50,616 nt of DNA from Hassallia byssoidea VB512170 (GTDB lineage Bacteria > Cyanobacteriota > Cyanobacteriia > Cyanobacteriales > Nostocaceae). The position numbers and the translations under genes were made by a program. Below, one piece after another: positions 5,185 to 27,765 of this stretch. Where the stretch lies: NCBI RefSeq assembly GCF_000817785.2, contig NZ_JTCM02000045.1, positions 1-50,616 on the forward strand. The letters run 5' to 3'. How positions within the stretch are numbered: the stretch's first letter is position 1; the number at the start of each line of letters is the position of its first letter. The notes under the pieces were generated by a model that worked only from the letters and a program-made list of their open reading frames with translations, did not search any database and had not been told where the DNA came from.

Positions 5185-5222
5185 GTCGTGGGTGTCGAGG
5201 ATCTATTAAACAAGGCTGTCCC
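5185..5222. repeat. Right copy of the ~38-bp inverted repeat
   Basis: Inverted counterpart of bases 12-50, differing by one base and one deletion. It lies just upstream of the truncated GT2 remnant, so the break in that gene and the repeat are probably related events. Confidence 0.7.
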
Positions 5223-5418
5223 GTAATGTCGGCGTTTTAGCGTAGGGGCAATATATTCACTTATTGTGAGTGTGCGATGACGATCGCACACTTACACAGC
5301 AGCTGCAACTCCAGCATTAGACTATTGCAATAAAGTGACACGTTTATCTTTGATCGCAATTCAGGAAGAGTGAATTATCATCAACAACTAATATCATGAC
5401 AGGTTTATTACATATGAT

Positions 5419-6935: not shown

Positions 6936-7558
6936 TTTTCTATACCTCGGAAAATTGTCTGGCTTCATTCAATATTAAAAGCTGCTGGAAGACAATTTCC
7001 AGAGGTTAACTGCAATCTTTTACAATAGTTAATTAAAGAGTCTTCAAGTCACACTAATTAAACGGTTATTTTGGACTTTGACCAAACGCCGTTTTCCAGA
7101 AATCTTAAAACTGCTTGCACCTCACGCCTAGTCAACCTTTTAGAGAAATTGTGCGTTTTAGCTTAATATTGTTACTTTGTCTGGATTTTTGGGAATTATA
7201 GAAGAAAGTGTACGCGCCAATTTTCGGAAATTTAGGTACAAAACTCGTAAAAAAACAGGCAAAAATAGGAAAACAATACTGACATTCGCCAAAATAGCAG
7301 TTATGGTATTAATAACTAAAGCTTACAGCGATAAGTTGCTAAAAAAATGAGTTAAAAATATCTTTTCACTAGCAGAAAGACATAAACATTATGAGTGCAT
7401 ATTTATTAAATATGTATTCCAAACCAATGACATTTAATCCGAAAATTCACCAATAACATCACAGGTTTTTATTAAGGATTTTCATAACTCAAATGTATGA
7501 AAGTGGCTACTTGCATAGCCACAAATTTCTCATACCGTATTTTCCCAGGAAAAACACT
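6936..7558. other. Intergenic region, about 620 bases
   Basis: AT-rich spacer between the divergent rubredoxin and plus-strand lipid locus. It should hold promoters for both directions. I see no convincing -10/-35 pair, RNA gene or recognisable gene remnant. Confidence 0.5.
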
Positions 7559-7669
7559 ATGGTTCAGGTGACAAATGGAGAGATTTATGATGAGAAAATG
7601 CTAGCATATTTAACCGAATTGCAACTTCATGTAGTTGAATTGGTAGAGTTCATAAAATACTCGCAATAA
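7559..7669 (+). pseudogene. 5' part of a coiled-coil gene, cut by an in-frame TAA
   Basis: An ATG at 7559, preceded by agga at good spacing, opens a 36-codon frame (MVQVTNGEIYDEKML...) ending at TAA 7667-7669. The same frame then continues without another stop (LQRLQKQEELYHQVAEG) into the gene at 7721. The heptad-like leucine/glutamine pattern runs through the stop. The simplest reading is one gene of about 175 codons broken by a single nonsense change. The alternative is two separately translated small proteins. Confidence 0.6.
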
Positions 7670-7720
7670 CTCCAACGGCTTCAGAAGCAGGAGGAGTTAT
7701 ATCACCAAGTTGCTGAAGGT

Positions 7721-8086
7721 ATGCAAAAGCTTGAATCCCATGCAGAACGCATAAATCTTTTGGCTGACAAGCTAGAGTTTGAAATTTTGCAGTTTAAGGA
7801 AATTGCACTGGAAATTAATCAGTCCTACCAAGCTATTCAGCAGCCTTTGGAGTTGAAAACACCTGGAAACGGCGAATTAAGACGGTTTCGTTGCAGACCT
7901 CTGAATATATGGGAAATCCATTATTCAAAAGTCCCCACTGTAATTAGACACAACACTGGGTTTGTCTTGACCGCAAAAACTATAGATTTATTCAAGGCAC
8001 AAGGGGAACTTGAATTTCAAAAACAACTAAAAGCAGCACAAAGCCGCAGAGAAGCATTTGAGTCCTGGTTAGTACAAAAAAAATAA
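7721..8086 (+). CDS. Hypothetical coiled-coil protein (probably the 3' part of a broken gene)
   Basis: The 121 residues have no family I recognise. The first half is helical with charged heptads (RINLLADKLEFEILQFKE), then a compact middle (FRCRPLNIWEIHYSKVP), then another charged helix to the end. There is no signal peptide or membrane segment. The reading frame extends upstream in phase to the TAA at 7667, and an in-phase ATG with a better ribosome site lies at 7559, so this product may be an artefact of a nonsense mutation. It ends 14 bases before the DarA-like gene on the same strand, suggesting a common transcript. Function unknown. Confidence 0.55.
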   Translation: MQKLESHAERINLLADKLEFEILQFKEIALEINQSYQAIQQPLELKTPGNGELRRFRCRPLNIWEIHYSKVPTVIRHNTGFVLTAKTIDLFKAQGELEFQKQLKAAQSRREAFESWLVQKK

Positions 8087-8100
8087 CCAAAACTAAAGTT

Positions 8101-9018
8101 ATGAAACGTGTATTAGTACTTTATTACACCCAATCGGGTGATGTACTTCGCGCTGCGGAGTCTTTTGTCAAATTTTTGGATACACCAGAAGTCGAACTTA
8201 CTTGGGAATGTATCAAACCAAAAGCTGATTACCCTTATCCCTGGAAATTGTACAAATTTTTTGACGTTTTTCCAGAATGTATTAATGAAGAACCACCGGA
8301 AATTTATCCGCCGAAGTTTGAGTCATCTAAAAAATTTGATTTAGTCATTGTTACTTATCAAGTTTGGTTTTTGGCACCAGCTTTACCGATTCAGGGCTTT
8401 CTCAAATCCGAGTATGCAAAAGTTCTAAAAGATACGAAAGTTATCACTTTAGTGGTGTGTCGGAATATGTGGCATTCAGCCTCAGAAACTATGAAGAAAA
8501 TGATTGCTGAGGTCGGAGGGATTCATATTGACAATGTTGTGGTGACTCATCAAGGTCCACCTTTGGCTACCTTTATTACTACGCCCCGGTTACTGTTAAC
8601 CGGAAAAAAGGATAAATTTTTGGGAACATTGCCGCCTGCGGGGGTGAAAGATGAGGATATTCATGCACTATCAAGATTCGGTAGGCAGATAGCAAATAAT
8701 CTGGCGGCATTGACTGATTCTTCTAATCAGCCATTGCTCAAAGGACTTGGTGCTGTTGAGGTCAATCGACGCTATATCATTCCAGAAATAATCGGACGAT
8801 TTGTATATAATCCTTGGGCAAAAATAGCTCGTTTTTTTGGTAAACCTGGAAGCTTGCGCCGACGACCCATTATATACCTATTTGCTATTCAGCTCGTCTT
8901 AGTCATTCCCATTGTGCTTCTATTTTCCCTAGTTTTTCGAGTTCTGTTTAATCCTTTGTTGAACAAAAAAATGGAGGCTTATGTTGACGTTCTTAAATCC
9001 CCATCTGCTGCTGGATAG
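8101..9018 (+). CDS. darA: DarA-like dialkylresorcinol condensing enzyme
   Basis: The 305-residue protein has a flavodoxin-like start (RVLVLYYTQSGD, residues 3-14). It also carries blocks characteristic of the DarA family: YPYPWKLYKFFDVFPE at about 45-60, YQVWFLAPALPIQGFL near 90-105 and VVCRNMWHSA near 120-130. The C-terminus has one hydrophobic segment (IIYLFAIQLVLVIPIVLLF) and would anchor it in the membrane. In characterised DAR pathways DarA and the ketosynthase DarB join two acyl-derived chains into a cyclohexanedione that becomes a 2,5-dialkylresorcinol. Related pairs occur in cyanobacterial alkylresorcinol clusters. The adjacent gene is a truncated DarB, so this enzyme may lack its partner. 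Family assignment is firm; activity in this strain is doubtful. Confidence 0.82.
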   Translation: MKRVLVLYYTQSGDVLRAAESFVKFLDTPEVELTWECIKPKADYPYPWKLYKFFDVFPECINEEPPEIYPPKFESSKKFDLVIVTYQVWFLAPALPIQGFLKSEYAKVLKDTKVITLVVCRNMWHSASETMKKMIAEVGGIHIDNVVVTHQGPPLATFITTPRLLLTGKKDKFLGTLPPAGVKDEDIHALSRFGRQIANNLAALTDSSNQPLLKGLGAVEVNRRYIIPEIIGRFVYNPWAKIARFFGKPGSLRRRPIIYLFAIQLVLVIPIVLLFSLVFRVLFNPLLNKKMEAYVDVLKSPSAAG

Positions 9019-9120
9019 GAAGACGTAGTAATTCGTTTTACCTATATCCATAAATGAAGCTTAATTGCCAAATTTACTCTTTTTTTAGTTTTTTGTTTTG
9101 TCACTTTCAAGGAGGATAAT

Positions 9121-9522
9121 ATGGGTTCTGCATACATTACAGGTCTTGGTGTTTTTCTACCCAACAACCCAGTTGATAATGAAAACATCGAAAATGTTCT
9201 GGGGATGATCAACGGTAAGCCCTCCCGAACCAAGTCAAGAATCTTGAGAAACAACGGCATCAAAACTCGACACTATGCCATCGATCCAAATACAGGCAAG
9301 CAAACTCACACCAATGCTCAATTAACAGCCGAAGCAGTGCGATCGCTATGTCCGTCAAATGAAAACTTTGACGGACGACTTATTCACTCGATGTTAATAA
9401 GCGTGTTGAAAATTTTGGAAATATTTGAATCATGGAAACCTTCAAAATTCCTAAATCTAAAGAACAGGTTATTCCCCAAGCTGAAAATCTGTTCAAGTCA
9501 GTTTTACTTGTGGGGCTGCTAG
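9121..9522 (+). pseudogene. darB: Truncated DarB-like beta-ketoacyl synthase III
   Basis: A strong aaggagg site precedes the ATG at 9121. The first 76 or so codons (SAYITGLGVFLPNNPVDN..., then PSRTKSRILRNNGIKTRHYA and NAQLTAEAVRSL) match the N-terminus of the FabH-like ketosynthase DarB. Homology stops near 9347 at a HIP1 octamer. The remaining codons are unrelated and run out of phase over the start of the desaturase gene. The active-site Cys, His and Asn of the thiolase fold, which lie further along, are all missing. A hairpin (tccgtcaaa/tttgacgga, 9351-9375) sits right after the break. About 250 codons appear to have been deleted. Confidence 0.8.
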
Positions 9523-10448
9523 TCGGTTCTTTTGCTCTGGCTTTGGTGGGTGTCACCAAAATAGATACTTATTTCTCTTCTAATTCCGAACCAATACACC
9601 TGGTAATTAAATGGGCGTTTGTTAGCGTTTTGGCAGTATTTAACTGCATTCTGCTGACGGGTATAGGAGTGATGGCACATGAGGGCATTCATGGGGTGTT
9701 ATTCAAAAGCAGGTTTTGGAATGACCTGTGGGGTGGAATATTGTCTGCCTTAGTTGTCTTCCTCCCTTTTTATGCGAACCGTGAATTTCATTTGACCCAC
9801 CATCGTTACACGCATCAGCCAGACTTAGATCCAGAGCAACCCTTGCATAACCACTCGTTTTGGTATGCATTTGCTATGGGAGGATTTATCGCCCTTTATC
9901 AACACTACAAAATAGTTGCAGCCAATCTATTAGGCGTGTTTTCGCTGAAGTGGAATAAGGTCTTTCGAGGTCTGAAAGATATTTGCTTTGTGGGTGTGGC
10001 TGTAGCTTTCTATTTTTATCTCCCCCCAATGCTGGGGATTTCCCTCTGGTATACAGTAGTTCCCACCTTCGTGTTAGTGCCGACGGTATATTCCTTCCGT
10101 GCGATGTGCGATCATTATGCCTTTGCACCTGCGGTTTCACCAGCCGCCAAGAAAAGCTTGGGTCGGGTAGTCAATATTGAAGATCAATCTGAGGATCTTC
10201 AAGGCGAGCAACTACAGATTGACAGCTGGTTAATCCTGACGAATCCAATGCTTACTTGGCTATGGAGCAACATTAACTATCAGCAGGTGCATCATCGGTA
10301 TCCTTACTTATCTTATCGATATCTGCCGGAAATTTTTGAAGCCACAAAGCACGAGCAGCCCTATGCAGTGGTGAACGGCTACTTCCTTTTTATAACTTCC
10401 GGAATTTTCATTTCACCCATCACCGTCATACGCATTGCTCCCGTCTAG
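9432..10448 (+). CDS. Membrane fatty-acid desaturase, copy 1 (altered C-terminus)
   Basis: Di-iron membrane desaturase or hydroxylase of 338 residues. It has all three histidine boxes: HEGIH at 83-87, HLTHH at 120-124 and QQVHH at 284-288. Hydrophobic segments lie at about 23-42, 62-82, 103-115, and two near 183-222. It would insert a double bond or hydroxyl in an acyl or aromatic-lipid chain. After YAVVNGYF (about 318) the last 20 residues are out-of-frame sequence from a second desaturase copy. Comparison with the tail of that copy indicates about 34 native residues were replaced. All metal ligands are retained, so activity is possible. The start overlaps the dead end of the truncated darB. 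Confidence 0.82.
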   Translation: METFKIPKSKEQVIPQAENLFKSVLLVGLLVGSFALALVGVTKIDTYFSSNSEPIHLVIKWAFVSVLAVFNCILLTGIGVMAHEGIHGVLFKSRFWNDLWGGILSALVVFLPFYANREFHLTHHRYTHQPDLDPEQPLHNHSFWYAFAMGGFIALYQHYKIVAANLLGVFSLKWNKVFRGLKDICFVGVAVAFYFYLPPMLGISLWYTVVPTFVLVPTVYSFRAMCDHYAFAPAVSPAAKKSLGRVVNIEDQSEDLQGEQLQIDSWLILTNPMLTWLWSNINYQQVHHRYPYLSYRYLPEIFEATKHEQPYAVVNGYFLFITSGIFISPITVIRIAPV

Positions 10449-11041
10449 ATCCTGAGGAACCTGTAAATAACCACCCCGTTTGGTTTGCTCTGATTGGGGG
10501 AGCCTTCATCGGTCTTTATATCCATTACAAAACACTTGCGGTCGATTTGTTGAGTGGGTCAAGAAAGCAGCAATATCAGGCGTTGAAAGATGTGTTTTGC
10601 TTAAGTATTGTAGGAGCTTTCTATTTTTATATTGTCCCGATCGCGGGAATTTCCATATTGTATACAGTTGTTCCGACTCTCCTGTTATTGCCATTGCTTT
10701 TTATGTTCCGTAACCTGTCGGAGCATCACGGCATTCCAGATCGGGTAAGAAAAAGCACACAACAAACAGAAAACCCAAATGTTGATAGCTGGATTATATT
10801 GACGAATCCCTTAATGACTTGGCTATGGAGCAACACCAATTATCATCAGGTACATCATCGGTATCCATATTTGTCTTACCGATATTTTCCGGAAATTTTT
10901 GAAGCCACCAAGCACGAGCAGCCCTATGCAGTGGTGAACGGCTACTTCCGTTGTACGATCAATTCGCTCAAGCGACCGTATTATGCAAGCGATGAAGACG
11001 TAAAGCCATTCTTGACGACTAAATCTGCTGTCAACTCCTAG
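10385..11041 (+). pseudogene. Membrane fatty-acid desaturase, copy 2 (N-terminal half deleted)
   Basis: From 10385 this frame reads PFYNFRNFHFTHHRHTH..., a close match to PFYANREFHLTHHRYTH of copy 1, and then runs parallel to copy 1 through HQVHHRYPYLSYRY to the stop at 11041. Histidine box 2 (HFTHH) and box 3 (HQVHH) are present. Box 1 (HExxH) and the first two membrane segments are absent, because the sequence begins at the recombination junction inside copy 1. It has no start of its own; a TTG at 10547 would give 164 residues lacking box 2 as well. The two copies were evidently tandem paralogues before an internal deletion. Confidence 0.85.
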
Positions 11042-11087
11042 GTTGCTTGTTTCACCTCAAGAGTAGGAACCGCCGAACCTAAGGAAG

Positions 11088-11115
11088 CAGCTGCCCTCTG
11101 TCTAGAGGGCAGCTG
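11088..11115. terminator. Perfect 12-bp hairpin after the desaturases
   Basis: cagctgccctct (11088-11099) and agagggcagctg (11104-11115) pair perfectly around a 4-base loop. No T-run follows, so it is either a weak terminator or an RNA-stabilising stem separating the lipid genes from devBCA. Confidence 0.55.
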
Positions 11116-11220
11116 ATTGATTGACATTACCAGAAGCGCCTCACGTTCGGTCAGTTTTCTAGATTATTTGCAGCTTTCAAATCAAGACTGTTAGTTTGTC
11201 ACCGATTCTTTGGGAATCCT

Positions 11221-12615
11221 ATGATTAACCTTGCTCAAGGTCTTTTGCTTGCTTTGGCAAGCAAATTTTTGGGGACAGCTATTTCGGGGGATGAGGTCAA
11301 TTTTCAGATGAAATTCAATACTTTTGGCAAACGAGTAGGGTGGTGGCTCATCCTTTTAGTAGTGGCTTGTGCTTCTATAACTAGCACCGTTGTTCTCTAC
11401 AGATTCCTGCCCATCCAGAATAGCGATCGCACTTCGTCACAAACCAAAGAAGCAACAGAAAGTACAATTGCTGTCAATGCCGTTGCTGCCTTGGGAGATT
11501 TGGAACCACAAGGAGAGGTTATTACCCTGTCGGCTCCCAATACTACACAAGGTTCGCGGGTTGACCAACTGCTTGTGGAACGGGGAGACAGTGTTAAGGC
11601 GGGGCAAGTAATTGCAATTCTTGACAGTCGCGATCGCCTGTCAGCTGCCCTCAAAAAAGCCCAAAAACAAGTCCTCGTTTCCCAAGCTCGTCTAGCACAG
11701 GTAAAAGCCGGAGCTAAACAGGGTGAGATTGATGCTCGCAAGGCGGACATTGGAAATATCTTGGCTGAACGGCGCGGACAAATTGCTACACAACAGGCAA
11801 CGATTCAGCGCTTGGAGGCTGAATTGCAGGGCGAAAAGCAAGCTCAAGCAGCGACGATTGAGCGTCTGGAGGCTGAATTGCAAAATGCTAAAACAGATTG
11901 CGATCGCTATGAGCGGTTATACTTTGAAGGTGCAGTAACAGAAATTGAGCGCGATCGCAAGTGTCTGGAACAAAAAACCGCGACTGAGCGCGTCAATGAG
12001 GCATCAGCTACCCTAAACCGGATTGTAAACAGTCGTCGAGAGCAGATTGCCGAAGCCAAAGCGACGAAGCAGCGGACAATTGACACTCTGCAACAGCAGC
12101 TAGCTGAAGCTAAAGCTACCTTAGAGCAGACGGCGGAAGTCCGTCCAGTAGACGTGGCAATTGCTTCTTCTGAACTTGAAAATGCCAAAGCATCTGTGCA
12201 ACAGGCTCAGGCAGAACTAGACCTAGCTTATGTGCGATCGCCCTCTTCTGGTCAAATTCTGAAAATTAACGCTCGTCCAGGAGAACTCGCCAGCGAAAAG
12301 GGAATTGTTGCATTAGGTCAAACCCAACAGATGTATGTGAAAGCAGAAGTCTATGAAACGGACATCGGTAAAGTCCGTGTAGGTCAACGAGCCATCATTA
12401 CTAGCAATGGGTTTAGTGCGAAGCTACACGGAACTGTAGACGAGATTGGTTTGGAAATTGGCAAAAAAGATGTTCTCGGTACTGACCCGGTAGCTGATGT
12501 AGATGCCAGAGTAGTGGAAGTCAGAATTCGCCTTGACCTAGCAGACAGCAAACTGGTTGCCGGCTTAACTAACTTAAAGGTGAAATCGATAATTGATACT
12601 TCCTCTGTTCGATAA
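11221..12615 (+). CDS. devB: DevB-family ABC exporter membrane fusion protein
   Basis: HlyD/DevB-type periplasmic adaptor of 464 residues (435 if the in-phase ATG at 11308 is used, which sits nearer the membrane anchor). The order is: N-terminal transmembrane anchor (WWLILLVVACASITSTVVLY), lipoyl-like half (GSRVDQLLVERGDSVKAGQV), a long coiled-coil hairpin at about 145-335, then the second lipoyl half and beta-barrel (AYVRSPSSGQILKINARPGE, KAEVYETDIGKVRVGQ). In Nostoc/Anabaena, DevBCA with TolC exports heterocyst glycolipids. Many paralogues exist for other substrates. It starts the devB-devC-devA-oxygenase operon and lies just downstream of the resorcinol/desaturase genes, a plausible substrate source. 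Confidence 0.92.
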   Translation: MINLAQGLLLALASKFLGTAISGDEVNFQMKFNTFGKRVGWWLILLVVACASITSTVVLYRFLPIQNSDRTSSQTKEATESTIAVNAVAALGDLEPQGEVITLSAPNTTQGSRVDQLLVERGDSVKAGQVIAILDSRDRLSAALKKAQKQVLVSQARLAQVKAGAKQGEIDARKADIGNILAERRGQIATQQATIQRLEAELQGEKQAQAATIERLEAELQNAKTDCDRYERLYFEGAVTEIERDRKCLEQKTATERVNEASATLNRIVNSRREQIAEAKATKQRTIDTLQQQLAEAKATLEQTAEVRPVDVAIASSELENAKASVQQAQAELDLAYVRSPSSGQILKINARPGELASEKGIVALGQTQQMYVKAEVYETDIGKVRVGQRAIITSNGFSAKLHGTVDEIGLEIGKKDVLGTDPVADVDARVVEVRIRLDLADSKLVAGLTNLKVKSIIDTSSVR

Positions 12616-12647
12616 AACACTACTTTTTCTACATACATAACAATTAA

Positions 12648-13814
12648 ATGAAAATATCCACAGCCTGGTTACAACTTAAGTATGAAAAACTCCGGTTATT
12701 AGTAGCACTAGGTGGAATTAGCTTCGCAGTAGTTTTGATATTTATGCAACTCGGCTTGCGTGCCGCTTTATTTGATAGTGCTGTCGCCCTGCATTCAAGA
12801 TTGCAAGGTGACATTTTTTTGGTCAGTCCTCGGTCTACCGCTTTGATTGCTATGGATAACTTTTCGGAACGCCGCTTATATCAATCTCTAGCTTTCGAGG
12901 AGGTAAAATCTGTTGTTGGGATCTATTTAGGTTTTGCACAATGGAAAAATCCCCAGACTAGAAATTATTGGCGCAACATATATGTGATCGGTTTTGAACT
13001 TGGCGATAAAGTATTTGATTTACCAGGTGTCAAGGAAAATTTAGATAAGCTGAAAATTCCAGATGTTGTTTTATTTGATGAAGCCTCTAGAGCCGAATTT
13101 GGTCCTATTGTTTCCGAATTTCAACGCCAGGGAATAGTCATTACAGAAATCGGAGACCGAGGTCCTAGCAATCGCCGAATTAGGGTAGAAGGATTATTTA
13201 AGTTAGGAACTTCCTTTGGAGCCGATGGCAATTTACTGACCAGCGATTTGAATTTTCTGCGGATTTTTCCCCAACGTTCCAAAGGATATATTAATCTAGG
13301 AATAATTAAATTAAAACCCGGTTATGATGTTATTAAAATCTGCGATAAATTAAAAACATATTATCCTCCAGATATCAAAGTTTTATCTAAACAAGAATTG
13401 ATGGAACAGGAAAAGAAATATTGGGATAGTAGTACTCCGATTGGGTTTGTTTTTGGTTTTGGTGTAGTTTTGGGAATAATAGTCGGGATTATTATTGTCT
13501 ATCAAATCCTATACAGCAACTTATCCGAGCATTTGGGTGAGTACGCAACTCTCAAAGCCATAGGATATAAACATTCTTACTTACTGTCTGTGGTTTTTCA
13601 AGAGTCGCTAATTTTAGCAATTTTCGGTTACATTCCTGGCTTTGTTATCGCTTCGGGAATGTATAACTTAGCTAGAAATGCCACACTTCTACCAGTTGCA
13701 ATGGAACTAACTAGAGCCTTGTTTGTATTGGTATTGACGTTTTTAATGTGTTTTAGTTCTGGGGCTATTGCTGTACGGAAACTCCAAGAGGCAGACCCGG
13801 CTGATATTTTTTAG
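12648..13814 (+). CDS. devC: DevC-family ABC exporter permease
   Basis: Permease of the MacB/DevC type, 388 residues. One transmembrane helix lies near the N-terminus (LLVALGGISFAVVLIFMQLG). A large periplasmic domain follows at about 45-255, and three more helices are clustered at the C-terminus (from about 265, including GFVFGFGVVLGIIVGIIIVY). The ending RKLQEADPADIF is typical of the family. It dimerises and couples ATP hydrolysis by DevA to substrate transfer from the outer leaflet to the DevB-TolC conduit. It follows devB by 32 bases and precedes devA by 14 bases, one transcription unit. Confidence 0.93.
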   Translation: MKISTAWLQLKYEKLRLLVALGGISFAVVLIFMQLGLRAALFDSAVALHSRLQGDIFLVSPRSTALIAMDNFSERRLYQSLAFEEVKSVVGIYLGFAQWKNPQTRNYWRNIYVIGFELGDKVFDLPGVKENLDKLKIPDVVLFDEASRAEFGPIVSEFQRQGIVITEIGDRGPSNRRIRVEGLFKLGTSFGADGNLLTSDLNFLRIFPQRSKGYINLGIIKLKPGYDVIKICDKLKTYYPPDIKVLSKQELMEQEKKYWDSSTPIGFVFGFGVVLGIIVGIIIVYQILYSNLSEHLGEYATLKAIGYKHSYLLSVVFQESLILAIFGYIPGFVIASGMYNLARNATLLPVAMELTRALFVLVLTFLMCFSSGAIAVRKLQEADPADIF

Positions 13815-13828
13815 CGTATTCTTAGATA

Positions 13829-14542
13829 TTGAGATTTATGCCACCCATTGTTATTCGCAATCTTAACCATTACTTTGGCAAAGGCTCACTACGCAAACAG
13901 GTTTTATTTGACATTAACCTAGAAATTAAAGCTGGTGAAATTATCATTATGACGGGGCAATCGGGGTCAGGAAAAACGACTTTATTATCGTTAATAGGAG
14001 CTTTACGCTCTGTTCAAAAGGGAAGTTTGAGAGTTTTAGAGCAAGAACTTCTGGGAGCGAATGAAGACCAAATGGTGTGGGTACGTCGGCGAATTGGCTA
14101 TATTTTTCAAGCTCACAATTTGTTGCAGTTCATGACTGCCCGACAGAACGTACAAATGTCAGTTGAACTGCATGAAAATATTTCTGCCCGTGAAGCTCGT
14201 ACCAAGGCTGAAGCAATACTCAAGGCAGTTGGTTTGGGGGAGCGAGTTAACTATTACCCTCATAATCTCTCAGGCGGACAAAAGCAGCGAGTAGCGATCG
14301 CCCGTGCTTTGGTGAGTCGTCCCCAATTGGTTTTAGCAGACGAACCGACTGCGGCATTAGACAGCAAAACTGGTCGAGAAGTTGTAGACCTAATGCAGCA
14401 TTTGGCTAGAGAACAAGGTTGCACCATCATGCTTGTAACTCACGACAATCGGATTTTGGATATTGCTGACCGCATCCTTCATATGGAAGATGGTCGGCTG
14501 GTAAAAGAAACGGTGGCAGATCGTCTCGCTTCTACCAACTAA
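13829..14542 (+). CDS. devA: DevA-family ABC exporter ATP-binding protein
   Basis: ATPase of 237 residues in the LolD/MacB/DevA class. Visible motifs are Walker A GQSGSGKTT at about 44-52, a Q-loop YIFQAHNLL, the signature LSGGQKQRVAIARALV, Walker B LVLADEPTAALD and the switch His in MLVTHDN. It powers the DevB-DevC exporter encoded immediately upstream. The gene is followed by a carotenoid-oxygenase homologue only 40 bases downstream, unusual company for devA, so that gene may belong to the same mRNA. Confidence 0.94.
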   Translation: MRFMPPIVIRNLNHYFGKGSLRKQVLFDINLEIKAGEIIIMTGQSGSGKTTLLSLIGALRSVQKGSLRVLEQELLGANEDQMVWVRRRIGYIFQAHNLLQFMTARQNVQMSVELHENISAREARTKAEAILKAVGLGERVNYYPHNLSGGQKQRVAIARALVSRPQLVLADEPTAALDSKTGREVVDLMQHLAREQGCTIMLVTHDNRILDIADRILHMEDGRLVKETVADRLASTN

Positions 14543-14582
14543 AACCAATCTCAAACACTAAGCTTTTAATCGAGGAAAAATT

Positions 14583-16022
14583 GTGCAAAATAAATTATTT
14601 CCAACTTGGGCAAAGGCAATTACCCAACCAGCGACTGAATTTGGTTTAACACCCCTGCCTGTTATTACTGGTGCCATTCCCACAGGGTTACGGGGTTCTT
14701 TATATTACAACGGTCCGGCACGGCTAGAGCGCGGCGGAAGACGAGCGGGACATTGGTTTGATGGGGATGGGGCAGTTCTGGCGGTTCATTTCACCGATAC
14801 AGGTGCTACTGGGGTTTATCGTTACGTACAAACAGCGGGATACCAAGCCGAAGAAAAAGCTGGAAAGTTTTTGTTCGAGACTTATGGGATGACGCCACGA
14901 GTACCGATTTGGAAACAGTTGGGTGCGCGACCAAAGAATTGTGCAAACATTTCCGTGATGGCATTGCCTGATAAGCTGTTGGCGCTCTGGGAGGGGGGTC
15001 TACCCCATGCGCTTGACTTGGTTAACCTAGAGACTTTTGGACTCGATAATTTAGGAGGGCTAGCTGATAGCGGAGCTTATGCGGCTCATCCGAAGCTTGA
15101 CCCACAAACACAAGCGATTTACAACTTTGGGGTAACTTATGGGGTAAAAGCAGTGTTGCATATTTACCAGTGCGATCGCGCCGGTCAGATTCAACAACAA
15201 GCTGAAATAGAACTTGATGGTCTGCCCTTGATACATGATTTTGTGCTGGCTGGTAATTATCTGGTGTTTTTCATTCCTCCGGTGCGGCTAAATCCAGTGC
15301 CATACCTAGCAAGGATGGCTTGCTTCGGTGATTCCTTGCAATGGCAGAAAGAACAGGGAACACAGATTATAGTGATTGATAAAACTACGCTCAAAGTAGT
15401 CAGTCGTAGCACAGAGTCGCCTTGGTTCCAGTGGCATTTTGCCAATGGTTATACCGATGCTAGTGGCTGTGCCGTAGTACACCTCGTTCGCTATGAAGAT
15501 TTTCAGAGTAATCAGTTCAACAAAGAGGTGGCGACAGGTCAAACACGTACAATTGCCAAGGGAACGCTTTTTTCGATACGTCTAGACCCGCAATCGGGCA
15601 AGGCGATCGAAATGCGTCAACTGCTCGATCGCAGCTGCGCTTTTCCCAGCGTACCTCCAGATCGGGTGGGGCAAGAATCGCGCTTCACTTACTTATTAAT
15701 GCATCGGTTCGGGGTTGATATCGGTCAGGAATTGTATGGTGCGATCGCCCGTTTCGACCATCAAACCAAAACCCTCACCGAAGCAGACTTCGGTGACAAC
15801 CGTTATCCAATGAAAGCTATCTATGCTGTTGATGCTGAAAATCCTGAAAAAGGTTGGGTTTTAACTGTAGTATTTGACGGCAATTCTTGCAGTAGCGAAG
15901 TCTGGATATTTGAGCAAGAGCATCTTGATGCTGAACCAGTTTGCAGGCTGGCATTACCCAGTGTAGTTTCTTTTGGGTTTGGCGGAACCTGGAAATCCGC
16001 TTCAGTGGCAAACACTTTTTGA
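14583..16022 (+). CDS. Carotenoid-oxygenase family protein lacking one iron His
   Basis: Seven-bladed propeller enzyme of the carotenoid cleavage / apocarotenoid-15,15'-oxygenase family, 479 residues, usual length. Family blocks include GSLYYNGPARLERGG near the N-terminus and HWFDGDGA at about 57-64. Three of the four Fe(II)-binding histidines are present: H169 (YAAHPKLD), H218 (LIHDFVL) and H285 (FQWHFANGY). The fourth normally lies in a GFHGTW motif near the C-terminus; here the motif reads GFGGTW with Gly467 (codon ggc at 15981). Loss of a ligand should impair iron binding and oxygen activation. The GTG start has gagg upstream and the gene follows devA by 40 bases. It may be a dead enzyme or may bind rather than cleave apocarotenoids. 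Confidence 0.88.
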   Translation: MQNKLFPTWAKAITQPATEFGLTPLPVITGAIPTGLRGSLYYNGPARLERGGRRAGHWFDGDGAVLAVHFTDTGATGVYRYVQTAGYQAEEKAGKFLFETYGMTPRVPIWKQLGARPKNCANISVMALPDKLLALWEGGLPHALDLVNLETFGLDNLGGLADSGAYAAHPKLDPQTQAIYNFGVTYGVKAVLHIYQCDRAGQIQQQAEIELDGLPLIHDFVLAGNYLVFFIPPVRLNPVPYLARMACFGDSLQWQKEQGTQIIVIDKTTLKVVSRSTESPWFQWHFANGYTDASGCAVVHLVRYEDFQSNQFNKEVATGQTRTIAKGTLFSIRLDPQSGKAIEMRQLLDRSCAFPSVPPDRVGQESRFTYLLMHRFGVDIGQELYGAIARFDHQTKTLTEADFGDNRYPMKAIYAVDAENPEKGWVLTVVFDGNSCSSEVWIFEQEHLDAEPVCRLALPSVVSFGFGGTWKSASVANTF

Positions 16023-16133
16023 GGACATAAAGATGCAGAAGAAGTGCGATCTGTTGGGTGCGATCGCCTTTCTTTCTTTAGATATAATCCTACAGTCTAC
16101 CTATAAGCAAGATCCAAAAGCCAGCCCCTGATA

Positions 16134-16334: not shown

Positions 16335-16394
16335 GGAAAAAGCCCTCAGAACGCAACAGCTTATCAAAGCATAACGAAAAGGCAAAAACTTCAT

Positions 16395-16746
16395 AATTTT
16401 ACGTCATAGACGAGTAGTGTTAAAGGCTGTACTTTAAAGCTAGTTCAGTATTTTCCCATGAAGGGGGAAATTCATCATAAAATTACATACTTTTCCGTAA
16501 ATCTTGGGAATAATAACCTTAGAAGGAGTTTTTCCGGAAAATTTATTTATGGAAGTGGAACTACAATTAGTCGGTTGTCATCGATGAAGTTAAAGACTTT
16601 ACCTTCGGGTTCGCCAGTCGCTACAACGGGGGAAACCCCAACGCCAGGTGCCTCAACGGAGGGAACCTCCGCACGGCACTGGCGCAGCAACGCGCTGGCT
16701 CACATTTTAACTGCGTAAATGGGTTTGAGGAGTAACCAAAATCAAT
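16395..16746. other. Intergenic region with a dispersed GC-rich repeat
   Basis: About 350 bases without a convincing gene. Bases 16615-16700 contain the cgctacaacgggggaaaccc / ggcgcagcaacgcgctgg repeat type. Related pieces are seen near 35.23 kb, 41.70 kb and 50.26 kb. The short frames crossing it have repeat-derived composition. Confidence 0.6.
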
Positions 16747-24238: not shown

Positions 24239-27200
24239 CTAAAATCGCTCAAACAGCCATTCATCGCCAACAATCTCCTCTAGGCGTTGAAGCAGTCGCG
24301 GGATAAAATATTCTGGATCGTTCAACCGTTGCTGAACAAACCAAGTATCAAAAGCTTCCTGTGTCTCAATACCTTGGGCATCTGCTGCCCCTGCAATCAT
24401 CTTGAAACTACCCTCTTGGAGTTCCTCTAACTGCGGATGATTTTCACCGCGTTGGTAGCAAAATAATATTGCAGTTGCCCCTAGCAAAACTTCCATTTCA
24501 TCACCTTGAGGTACTGCGTTATACAAAGCACGAATTAGCTGAATTGTATTTGTTAAAGAAGCTTGAATTCTTATCGTCAGCCAAGTTGCTTGAGCCAGGT
24601 AAACCAAACTGTTACTTTCATCTGTTAAGCCTAAGTTACCCAGAACTGTTACCAAATCTACATAAGCACGAATCTGTGCAAGTGCTGAAGCCGCTTGTAG
24701 ATTTAAGTCTAACTCCCTAGCTTTATCTCCAGTTTCACCTGCCAAATAAGCCATGTTTGCCAAAGTAGCAGCTTTACCTTTAACATCGTTAATCTGCTCT
24801 TTTATTTCCAATGATTGCTGATAAAGTGCGATCGCACCATCAATATCTCCGCTTTGGGCAATTAAACCTGCCATTTGGTGCAAAGTAGCAGCTTTACCTC
24901 GAACATTGTTAATCCGCTCTTCTATTTCCAATGATTGCTGACAAAGTTTCATCGCGCCGTCAATATCTCCGCTTTGGGCTATTAAATAAGCCATGTTGTG
25001 CAGAGTATCAGCTTTTTGTTTCAAGTCCTCTTCCGGACAAAGGTCTAAAGCTTGCTGATAATGAGCTAAAGCATCCTCAACTTTGCCCAAAACTTCTTCA
25101 GCACGGGCGATGGTTCCCAAAATGCGGTAGTCTACATATTGCATTAGTTGCTGACAAAGCTGCACCGCTTCCATAAATCGGGAACTATTCACCCAATTTC
25201 TTGCGATATTGTCCCCAACGCTGACGGCAATTTCTTGCTCATCTGCTAGCAGTCCCAAACGCACAATTTCCAATGCTTCGGCTTCTGTGTGTTTCTCAGA
25301 CTCCTCCCACCATACTTTATATAGTTTCCTTGCCGCTTGCTGTCGGGTTGTTTGCCATTCCTCTTCATTTAACACAGGTTGCAGCAACAATTCTAAAATC
25401 GTCGCTACTCGGTAATTGGGTGTCTGGCTTTTGTAAGTCGTGGCGGATTCCACTAAGCTGAGGCTGACGAGTTTAGTCATAACCGCCAGGAAATTAATTT
25501 CCTGGCTCATAGCTGAAGTCCGCTCAAGCGGACTAGAAATTTTCTCTGCTAAATCCTCAGTCCTCTTTAGAGGACTTTCGCTATTAGCCTGGGAATTTGA
25601 TTCCCAGGCGGTATCGGTTGAGGTTGCAGCCTTCACAATATCCTCTGTCACTGGCAAACGAAACACGCTCAACCGCGCCAGAAATTTTCGCTCATCCTGA
25701 TTTAACGCCTTGAGCAGTGTTTCCGCCAAAATATTCTCGCGAAATTCCTGCTGAGTCGCTTCCAACTTCGTCAACAACTCATCCGCTGCTAAACCCGGTT
25801 GCTTGACTACATCCAACAGCCATTTCAATAAACGCGGATTTCCGTCGGCAATTCTTATTATCCGTTGTTGGTGTACCTGTTGCTTTTCTTTTTCTAAATC
25901 CCGGCAGATTTTATCAACATCCGCCGGATTCATTGCTGCTAAAGATTCCAAATGCAGGCGGTGAGGTGGCAGCGTGTCTGATTTCAAGTAGCGACAGGTG
26001 ACAATCAACCGACTCTCAGCTTGATTTTCCGCCAAAGCCGCACAAATCGCCCCGAAAATATCATAAGCTTCTGCCGTCATCCGCAGCGAACCATCAGCAA
26101 TATTCGCTTGGGGGATGTTCTGCTCAAAGTCATCCAACACCAACAGCAGCGGTTGGTTGTGTTGAGTTTCAATAACTTCAAAAAAGTTTTGCAACCGCCC
26201 TTTCAAGGAAATTCCTGGTTGATTCAACAGTGCAGGCACATCTGCAAACCGCTCATACTTGCTAGAAAGCTTATTCAGCAACCCAACCTCATCCAGCGGT
26301 CCAATCAACACCACCCGCTGAAAATTCAAACGCTGCGCCTGTACTCTACCACACAACCGCGCCGCCAACGTACTTTTGCCCAGTCCGCCCATCCCGGCAA
26401 GAAACACGCCGATTTCCTCGCTGGTTTCCCGCAATGCCCGCAAACACCTTTGCAAAGGTCGTCTGCGTCCGACAAACTCAAATTGACCCGCTACTTTAAC
26501 GATATTTTTCTCATCCAGAAATTCGCTCTCTGGCGGTAGAAATTTCAGCTTTTCTCGCCCCTTAGTTCTCAACGGTGTCACCAGTTGCTCAATTGGGCGC
26601 GTATCCCGATAAATCCGCAACAGATGCCAGTCGCTGCATTTGTCGGAAATCATCTTTTCTTGTGCTGCTTTTACCGCCTCTTCTACTGTTGCACCCGTCG
26701 CCAAAGCCTGATATAACGCTTGTGCCGCAATAATACCCGTGCGGTCAGACACCGGACGCGCCCAGCCCAAAACTACACCCGCCCCAGCCTTCACTAATTG
26801 TTGCGCCATCGAAGGCACCGTTCCCCGGTTGGCTATTTGTCCGGTGTGACAGCCAGAGAGAAATATCACGCGGGGAAAGCGTCCCCGAAAGGTTTGAGCT
26901 AAGTCCTTGACGGTAGTAATTTGCACATAACCCTCTTCATCCTCAGTGATGAAGCAAGGCGTATTTTCCTCTATTTTTCTATTTTTTGGCAGCAAATCGC
27001 CGTAGTCTTCTTTGGTATAAATTATCCCGTGTCCCGTCAGGTGAAAGACATCAAAATAGTCTTCCGGGTAGGATTTAACCAGATTGGCTAATTCTGTCAC
27101 CGAGCCGCTTTCCTCTACAATCAAAGCTAAGGGCTGATCCTTGGTAGCTTGCAGAATGTTGGCTTCTTCCTGCTCAAAATCCAAAATTGGCTTTATCCCT

Positions 27201-27682
27201 TCTGGAGAAGTCGCCATGAACAGCAACCGCAACGGACGATTTTGCATTGCAGCAACTTTGGTGTTACGCTGCTGCACGGAACGCACTAACAACACGGCAA
27301 TATCTTGCCGTTGCAGTAAAAACCCTGTGCGATCGCGTAGCAATTCCCAAGGCAAATGTGCTAGTCCCAAAGCTATACGTTCCGTTTCTGGGTTCAATCC
27401 CTGCGCTTCGCTAGTTTGGATCAAATCTAGATAAATCGTTTGTTCATCCGTCTCATCCAGCGACTTTCTCAGCCATCCTTCCTTGCCATCCAGCCAAGAA
27501 TAAAGCTGTCGTCCAATTTCGGTAAGATAGGATAGGCGATCGCTCTCCTTAGAATAGTAATTTTGCTCACACTGGTCAATTAATGCTAATAACTCTACTT
27601 TATCCAGGCGACGCGAGCCATAATCACAGCGCAATTCAAAAGTTTGCTGTTGACTAAGGGCAAAAGTGAAGGTTATGGGCAT
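24239..27682 (-). CDS. CHAT protease-NTPase (NB-ARC/NACHT-like)-TPR protein
   Basis: Large STAND-type signalling protein, 1147 residues from the ATG at 27682 (a TTG at 27706 would add eight). The N-terminal CHAT caspase-like domain has the catalytic dyad His218 in FHLTGHG and Cys278 in FLSGCHTG. The central P-loop NTPase has GMGGLGKST at about 430-438 and Walker B LLLVLDD at 512-518. A winged-helix-like region follows, then TPR repeats at about 860-1000 (e.g. NMAYLIAQSGDIDGAMKLCQ). Such proteins are thought to oligomerise on sensing a ligand and activate the protease; related ones serve in defence or regulated death. Residues about 692-733 are encoded by palindromic repeat DNA inserted in frame (separate entry). 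No partner gene is obvious. Confidence 0.88.
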   Translation of the reverse strand: MPITFTFALSQQQTFELRCDYGSRRLDKVELLALIDQCEQNYYSKESDRLSYLTEIGRQLYSWLDGKEGWLRKSLDETDEQTIYLDLIQTSEAQGLNPETERIALGLAHLPWELLRDRTGFLLQRQDIAVLLVRSVQQRNTKVAAMQNRPLRLLFMATSPEGIKPILDFEQEEANILQATKDQPLALIVEESGSVTELANLVKSYPEDYFDVFHLTGHGIIYTKEDYGDLLPKNRKIEENTPCFITEDEEGYVQITTVKDLAQTFRGRFPRVIFLSGCHTGQIANRGTVPSMAQQLVKAGAGVVLGWARPVSDRTGIIAAQALYQALATGATVEEAVKAAQEKMISDKCSDWHLLRIYRDTRPIEQLVTPLRTKGREKLKFLPPESEFLDEKNIVKVAGQFEFVGRRRPLQRCLRALRETSEEIGVFLAGMGGLGKSTLAARLCGRVQAQRLNFQRVVLIGPLDEVGLLNKLSSKYERFADVPALLNQPGISLKGRLQNFFEVIETQHNQPLLLVLDDFEQNIPQANIADGSLRMTAEAYDIFGAICAALAENQAESRLIVTCRYLKSDTLPPHRLHLESLAAMNPADVDKICRDLEKEKQQVHQQRIIRIADGNPRLLKWLLDVVKQPGLAADELLTKLEATQQEFRENILAETLLKALNQDERKFLARLSVFRLPVTEDIVKAATSTDTAWESNSQANSESPLKRTEDLAEKISSPLERTSAMSQEINFLAVMTKLVSLSLVESATTYKSQTPNYRVATILELLLQPVLNEEEWQTTRQQAARKLYKVWWEESEKHTEAEALEIVRLGLLADEQEIAVSVGDNIARNWVNSSRFMEAVQLCQQLMQYVDYRILGTIARAEEVLGKVEDALAHYQQALDLCPEEDLKQKADTLHNMAYLIAQSGDIDGAMKLCQQSLEIEERINNVRGKAATLHQMAGLIAQSGDIDGAIALYQQSLEIKEQINDVKGKAATLANMAYLAGETGDKARELDLNLQAASALAQIRAYVDLVTVLGNLGLTDESNSLVYLAQATWLTIRIQASLTNTIQLIRALYNAVPQGDEMEVLLGATAILFCYQRGENHPQLEELQEGSFKMIAGAADAQGIETQEAFDTWFVQQRLNDPEYFIPRLLQRLEEIVGDEWLFERF
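25485..25609. repeat. Four palindromes inserted in frame inside the CHAT-NTPase gene
   Basis: Four consecutive palindromes: 25485-25506 (gccaggaaatt and its exact complement, a perfect 22-bp palindrome), 25517-25534 (agtccgct/agcggact), 25559-25576 (agtcctct/agaggact) and 25587-25609 (gcctgggaat/attcccaggc). The type matches intergenic hairpin repeats, e.g. agtccacgcaggtggactt near 28722. The insert keeps the frame and encodes a polar linker (SNSQANSESPLKRTEDLAEK region). Confidence 0.8.
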
Positions 27683-27765
27683 AACTTGAATCAGTAGATT
27701 CCACAATTATATTCACAGTGCTATCACACAATTCCCGTATTTATGAGGAATCTTGCTAAATTCTT

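Follow-up and report, generated by a model that had tools for sequence, protein, structure and literature searches.

Do the genes at positions 8101 to 16022 of a Hassallia byssoidea VB512170 contig form one lipid pathway, what would that pathway make, and does it still operate? The window, meaning the whole 50,616-nucleotide stretch analyzed here (NZ_JTCM02000045.1), comes from a 7.5-Mb, 219-contig draft genome (G000, with the locus on contig C192). In this interval it carries, all on the plus strand, darA, a fragment of darB, two desaturase genes, devB, devC, devA, and a homologue of carotenoid oxygenases; this order and orientation, given in the original prediction from the DNA alone, are borne out by the positions of the open reading frames (ORFs). 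Genes for DarB, the desaturases, DevBCA, and the oxygenase homologue were called with profile scans against Pfam and NCBIfam. We put the probability at roughly 0.65 that these genes are what is left, after recent inactivation, of a locus for a dialkylresorcinol-type lipid that DevBCA would have exported.

Lesions and boundaries of the locus

A DarA search recovered an intact version of the locus in a genome of the same genus (G004, which matches Plectonema radiosum NIES-515, NZ_JAOWRF010000336.1), and the lesions of the window copy were measured against it. In G004, genes for DarB (383 amino acids [aa]), desaturase 1 (349 aa), and desaturase 2 (322 aa) are followed by devB, devC, devA, and the oxygenase gene. 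The window lacks 939 base pairs (bp) between GTGCGA repeats, a deletion that takes darB from codon 73 past its stop, and 923 bp between CTACTTCC and TTACTTCC, which share 7 identical bases. This second deletion shifts the frame and takes the end of desaturase 1 along with the first 108 codons of desaturase 2. Lesions in darB, of which 72 codons are left, and in desaturase 2 had both been predicted; the clipped C terminus of desaturase 1, whose three His boxes are intact, had gone unremarked.

DarB of G004 scores 577 bits against the StlD/DarB family model NF005293 (cut-off, 450 bits) and aligns with StlD (5gk0) over residues 3 to 383, retaining the SG-x-C, PHYSSEYF, and NTGSAS motifs, which we take to hold the catalytic Cys, His, and Asn. 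These motifs are missing from the window's remnant, which covers positions 1 to 79 of the 378 in the family profile and falls below the cut-offs of both that model (109 to 111 bits) and the stricter dialkylresorcinol DarB model NF053539 (94 bits; cut-off, 550 bits). No second DarB above the family cut-off was found in the source genome. Judged from sequence, the pathway in the window's strain is dead at DarB.

Ratios of nonsynonymous to synonymous substitution (dN/dS) against G004 range from 0.07 to 0.30 for darA, desaturase 1, devBCA, and the oxygenase gene, at a dS of 0.14 to 0.17, and relaxed selection on these genes was not seen in polarized amino acid changes, with the possible exception of DarA (window/relative/ambiguous: DarA, 5/1/18; desaturase 1, 4/6/5; oxygenase, 6/5/7; DevC, 3/3/7). 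Given these ratios and the lack of a clear excess of changes in the window, the inactivation looks recent.

Matches to DarA occur in 18 of the 217 genomes of the family set, which we take to be Nostocaceae; 15 are full length, the window's included, and 3 are remnants. A phylum-wide profile search of 386 genomes returned 26 matches, of which 3 are full length (the window and two Synechocystis genomes) and 2 are remnants; the remaining 21, weak, N-terminal, and in genomes of about 2 Mb, were set aside. The window DarA is 92% identical to that of G004, 71 to 77% identical to the 13 other full family copies, and 54% identical to that of the Synechocystis cluster. DarB stands behind DarA in all 14 other full family loci and in both Synechocystis loci. 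No Pfam or NCBIfam model matched DarA at an E value of 0.01, and its predicted structure (mean pLDDT, 52; flavodoxin-like start) was too weak for a fold search; a homologue in Streptomyces, 28% identical, adjoins a gene with a KAS III C-terminal domain. The original prediction made DarA the condensing enzyme, but the passages of PMC3949708 that treat these proteins name DarA an aromatase and DarB a cyclase.

In three genomes (G222, G034, and G205; loci L039 at 7351 to 7596, L040, and L041), the DarA remnant comprises about 50 to 60 matched residues with no DarB-like ORF, and the PfaD-type polyketide synthase (PKS) island around it is otherwise still standing. DarAB seems to have been lost there also.

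The locus belongs to a block that is present or absent as a unit, being found in G000 and G004 and missing from three congeners. In the latter (G001, G002, and G003), the match to the window extends up to 6939, is interrupted by 150, 180, and 164 bp of other DNA, respectively, and resumes from 16134/16135; the right-hand match in G002 stops at 16376, with the remainder on another contig, and G003 is only 54% complete, yet the site is covered. In G004, the region is split between two contigs, C112 with the left junction and C383 with everything else; the break falls about 120 bp inside the block, and we take these two contigs to be joined. The G+C content of the block equals that of its surroundings (0.425 versus 0.424). 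A tree of one 1.27-kb flank places G000 with G001 and G004 with G002 and G003 (96/94), so that the two carriers are not grouped, and we rejected the idea that one clade acquired the block once. Either a pair of losses or one insertion passed on by recombination may explain the pattern.

Tailoring genes and the oxygenase homologue

The FA_desaturase family of Pfam is matched twice in the window. Genes of the desaturase-1 type (>50% identity) are present in only 5 of the 211 genomes searched for them, and in 4 of these (the window's, G004, G204, and G086, the last two adding two further genera) they lie behind DarAB. In the fifth, G087, the gene is preceded by type I and type III PKS genes and followed by a CylK-like gene and devBCA. 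The row DarA-DarB-desaturase-DevBCA, for which a search had been proposed, thus exists intact in G004, and the placement of darAB with desaturases in G004, G204, and G086 indicates that the grouping is not accidental.

Among the 14 other full loci, the genes behind DarB fall into alternative sets: 9 loci have a CylK-like propeller gene and a CylC-like gene, 3 have the desaturase-1 type (G004, G204, and G086), and 2 have neither (G085 and G011); in none of the 14 does the CylK/CylC-like pair occur together with the desaturase. The one CylK-like gene tested scores 530 bits to the solved CylK. The accompanying 400-residue gene is presumably CylC-like, an assignment that we base on its position and on descriptions of such genes; its sole family match (AurF, 21.3 bits) is under the 29.6-bit cut-off, and it had no match in the PDB. 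All listed genes of the window's block were scanned with Pfam and NCBIfam, and none is a CylC homologue, a CylK homologue, or a glycosyltransferase; nor does the block contain a PKS, an acyl carrier protein (ACP), or a ligase.

An extra desaturase in G086, between DarB and desaturase 1, is unrelated and was rejected as an orthologue of desaturase 2, and in the desaturase tree, desaturase 2 and the G087 gene form long branches that meet, a join that may be false. The G087 locus (L103, C1 2488000 to 2507500) places PKS, type III PKS, desaturase, CylK-like, and devBCA genes on one strand without DarA and, by its gene content, may represent another resorcinol-type route sharing tailoring and export genes. 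Elsewhere, locus L029 (G016, C56 60000 to 79500) combines a type I PKS with homologues of a type III PKS and of a methyltransferase gene, and also contains DarA-DarB, one CylK-like gene, and a pair of CylC-like genes.

From these gene contents we infer a desaturase-bearing variant of the cyanobacterial dialkylresorcinol lipid clusters. In the intact locus, DarB would catalyze the head-to-head condensation of two fatty-acyl chains, DarA would aromatize the ring, and the two desaturases, occupying the slot where related clusters carry CylK-like and CylC-like genes, would add double bonds (or hydroxyls) to the alkyl chains; DevBCA would export the lipid. Primary fatty-acid synthesis would supply the acyl chains, given that the block lacks a PKS, an ACP, and a ligase. 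With its two short-repeat deletions, the window's strain would make nothing by this route unless another ketosynthase substitutes.

The oxygenase homologue, matched by the carotenoid oxygenase (RPE65) family at 392 bits, had been listed among the damaged genes, but it is no casualty of the decay: its frame is complete (479 aa), its dN/dS against G004 is 0.135, and the substitution at its fourth iron ligand is shared with the intact relative. Three of four His residues, which we take to be the iron ligands, are present, and the fourth is replaced by Gly467 in the window and G004 but is His in 28 other homologues, the top-scoring ones of the 211-genome search. Since intact G004 has Gly too, the substitution is older than the decay. 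Of 24 columns that are invariant in the 28 homologues and differ in the window, G004 shares the window residue in 23. All 211 genomes contain some oxygenase match, many near 60% identity, and the copy of this locus (96 to 100%) occurs only in G000 and G004. The gene encodes a divergent paralogue whose catalysis is probably altered. An oxygenase that lacks the fourth iron His and is under purifying selection in two genomes is a possible pseudoenzyme.

Linkage and kinship of DevBCA

DevB, DevC, and DevA of the window each exceed their curated NCBIfam cut-offs. In 14 of the 15 full loci (expected, 0.9), or in 7 of 8 when counted by genus (expected, 0.49), DarA has a DevC no more than 30 kb away; the distance is within 20 kb in 12 loci (expected, 0.61) and within 10 kb in 3 (expected, 0.32); the threshold was picked after the data had been seen, and the loci are related to one another. 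The expected numbers are slightly raised, the G011 count having been entered as 8 with 7 over the cut-off, and contig ends stand outside the model. In the exception, G089, the contig extends just 4.7 kb upstream of DarA. The separation is 7 kb in G011 and about 16 to 27 kb in the PKS islands of 11 others, and the three loci with DarA remnants have a DevC within about 21 kb. DevBCA orthologues therefore do not always stand alone, since in two Synechocystis genomes they also form part of the same row as DarAB.

The DevC tree sets the window outside the group of PKS-island and glycolipid-type sequences (18 rows, 100/100) and makes it sister to the DevC of the two Synechocystis genomes (95/87). 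Inheritance of the window DevBCA from that of the PKS islands was rejected, with P values of 3.7e-7 (13 island rows) and 0.001 (18 island and heterocyst-glycolipid rows). The source genome has an island of the PfaD type on contig C85, outside the window's block, which holds DevB, DevC, and an epimerase gene without DevA or DarAB and accounts for the sole PfaD match of the genome; its arrangement is that of hgdBCA in the heterocyst-glycolipid region as given in the relevant passages of PMC6161253.

Within the family, the DevBCA closest to that of the window is at L173 (G011, C191 18500 to 38000), where it follows a pair of similar 323-aa genes (DUF1702 in the one scanned) and a pair of genes of about 590 aa (Trp_halogenase family in the one scanned). 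This locus perhaps serves another exported polyketide.

We suggest, tentatively and with less than even confidence, that distant cyanobacteria rely on a single DevBCA subclade for their resorcinol lipids and that the slot behind DarAB accepts exchangeable tailoring genes, either a CylC/CylK-like halogenase and alkylase or desaturases. In this arrangement, the modules for desaturation and chlorination would stand in for one another. If so, the intact P. radiosum locus would yield an as yet undescribed kind of dialkylresorcinol lipid, unsaturated and without chlorine, and send it out of the cell, and the DarAB resorcinol pathway would be tied to a specific transporter family in loci without a PKS. 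DevBCA export of resorcinol lipids is now directly testable in Plectonema radiosum NIES-515 and Synechocystis sp. PCC 7338, and the window would offer a clear case of a lipid pathway soon after its inactivation.

Known systems and alternative readings

In Synechocystis sp. PCC 7338 and G310, one strand carries CylK-like, DarA, DarB, UDPGT, DevB, DevC, DevA, and CylC-like genes. The cited parts of PMC7081238, PMC8406957, and PMC6965366 identify BrtB and BrtJ as homologues of CylK and CylC, respectively, and BrtD as the ketosynthase that performs the condensation; gene content and genus point to the two Synechocystis loci (L183 and L184) being bartoloside (brt) clusters. They resemble the window in having DarA-DarB and DevBCA on one strand, with a DevC that groups with the window's, the likeness in DarAB being to whole genes in G004 and to a remnant in the window. 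They differ in their CylK-like, CylC-like, and glycosyltransferase genes, in place of which the window's block has desaturases and the oxygenase homologue. DevBCA counts as a brt trait only if L183 and L184 are brt clusters; the same parts of the three papers mention no transporter.

The PfaD-type PKS islands that carry DarAB in Fischerella and further genera are also similar, with DarA at 71 to 77% identity, DarB behind it, and DevBCA in the island, and those of G204 and G086 share the desaturase-1 type with the window locus. These islands differ in their large PKS, PfaD, ACP, and acyltransferase-like genes and in a DevC of the heterocyst-glycolipid-type subclade. DarAB clusters in Nostocales have already been described as a class in the passages cited from PMC8406957, and the "dialkylresorcinol" cluster class of that paper may include these islands. 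The nostochloroside (ngl) cluster of Nostoc punctiforme has, like several DarAB islands, CylC and CylK homologues, but it makes chlorinated gulose glycolipids, its authors selected it among organisms without the resorcinol-forming CylI, and the relevant sections of PMC10849952 name no DarAB. DevBCA/HgdBC of Anabaena sp. PCC 7120 belong to the same transporter family, and DevBCA there exports the heterocyst glycolipid (PMC6161253, in the passages cited), but that system is heterocyst specific, and the hgdBC-type DevC of the family islands falls in another subclade. The dar cluster of Azoarcus sp. BH72 likewise joins darA and darB with ABC-transporter genes but yields an aryl-polyene hybrid pigment, and the rows of PMC3949708 that describe it name neither a desaturase nor DevBCA. 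A description of DarAB, desaturases, and DevBCA combined was not found in searches of open-licence papers. Within those searches, the claim that no described system has exactly this combination holds for the full set, although bartoloside-type clusters offer a precedent for the pairing of DarAB with DevBCA.

Several observations weigh against a DevBCA-exported dialkylresorcinol. The block has no glycosyltransferase, whereas the known DevBCA cargo is a glycolipid. Most of the proximity of DevC to DarA stems from PfaD-type PKS islands, which resemble the heterocyst-glycolipid island and are mutually related, and the DevC of these loci is not closely related to that of the window. In the tree, the Synechocystis DevC sits on a long branch (0.82), a pairing of the window DevC with that of G011:C191 alone is not rejected (P = 0.16), and the window DarA is nearer to other family copies than to those of Synechocystis. 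On the stricter NF053539 model, moreover, DarB of G004 scores 507 bits, under the 550-bit cut-off. As to the original prediction of an intact desaturated-alkylresorcinol locus with DevBCA export, the intact locus was found, in the same-genus G004, while export of its lipid we continue to infer.

The row might instead be two unrelated neighbors, one made up of darAB and the desaturases, which is dying, and one made up of devBCA and the oxygenase, which is alive and whose other role keeps the region. The deletions are indeed confined to darB and the two desaturase genes, with devBCA and the oxygenase gene complete and constrained (dN/dS, 0.07 to 0.28), and among the 17 other loci with DarA or its remnant, only G004 has a match to the window oxygenase in the stretches fetched. 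DarA and DevC also have different nearest kin, and the window DarAB and DevBCA therefore show no common history. This separation is nonetheless rather unlikely, given that the block comes and goes as a unit and that DevBCA of the same subclade is found in line with DarAB in two Synechocystis genomes. Alternatively, the StlD/DarB-type enzyme may form a related head-to-head product, for example a cyclohexanedione, in place of a dialkylresorcinol, which would accord with the G004 DarB passing the family cut-off while missing the specific one and with StlD being its closest solved structure. We consider this unlikely: DarA adjoins DarB, as expected for aromatization to a resorcinol (PMC3949708, in the part cited), although the loci were found via DarA and are not independent in this respect, and in a DarB search of 11 genomes, all 4 proteins above the cut-off adjoin a DarA. 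It is highly improbable that the lesions are assembly errors in an intact locus. The draft state of G000 would allow for such errors, but there are two separate deletions, their flanks align cleanly, and junction repeats of 6 to 7 identical bases are too short to mislead an assembler, making assembly collapse at them unlikely. A remnant of one dialkylresorcinol-type lipid locus with its exporter remains our preferred reading.

Table 1. Features of the block and its genes in the window
Feature	Positions	Strand	Remarks
Block with the whole locus	6940..16133	.	9.2 kb; absent from three congeners
Hypothetical protein at block start	7721..8086	+	121 aa; 197-aa ORF in G004; no family match
darA-like (aromatase) gene	8101..9018	+	305 aa, intact
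darB remnant	9121..9336	+	Initial 72 codons; ORF continues in other sequence to 9522
Deletion 1 junction	9337..9342	+	939 bp absent versus G004; GTGCGA repeat
Desaturase 1 (FA_desaturase)	9432..10448	+	Three His boxes present; final ~31 to 34 residues swapped for out-of-frame sequence
Deletion 2 junction	10379..10386	+	923 bp absent versus G004; CTACTTCC/TTACTTCC repeat
Desaturase 2 remnant	10387..11041	+	Without initial 108 codons; listed ORF 10547 to 11041
devB, membrane fusion protein	11221..12615	+	TIGR02971, 342.6 bits (cut-off 129)
devC, ABC permease	12648..13814	+	TIGR01185, 519.6 bits (cut-off 290.35)
devA, ABC ATPase	13829..14542	+	TIGR02982, 383.2 bits (cut-off 295.8)
Carotenoid-oxygenase homologue	14583..16022	+	Complete frame; Gly467 (codon at 15981) in place of fourth iron His

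Outside the block, window positions 16612 to 16704 contain a repeat of about 90 bp with many copies across genomes of the genus, and positions 5200 to 5249 contain a short repeat that recurs many times in this genome, in several cases less than 100 bases from a contig start. Farther downstream, positions 24239 to 27706 encode a 1,155-aa protein with CHAT, AAA/NACHT-like, and TPR domains.

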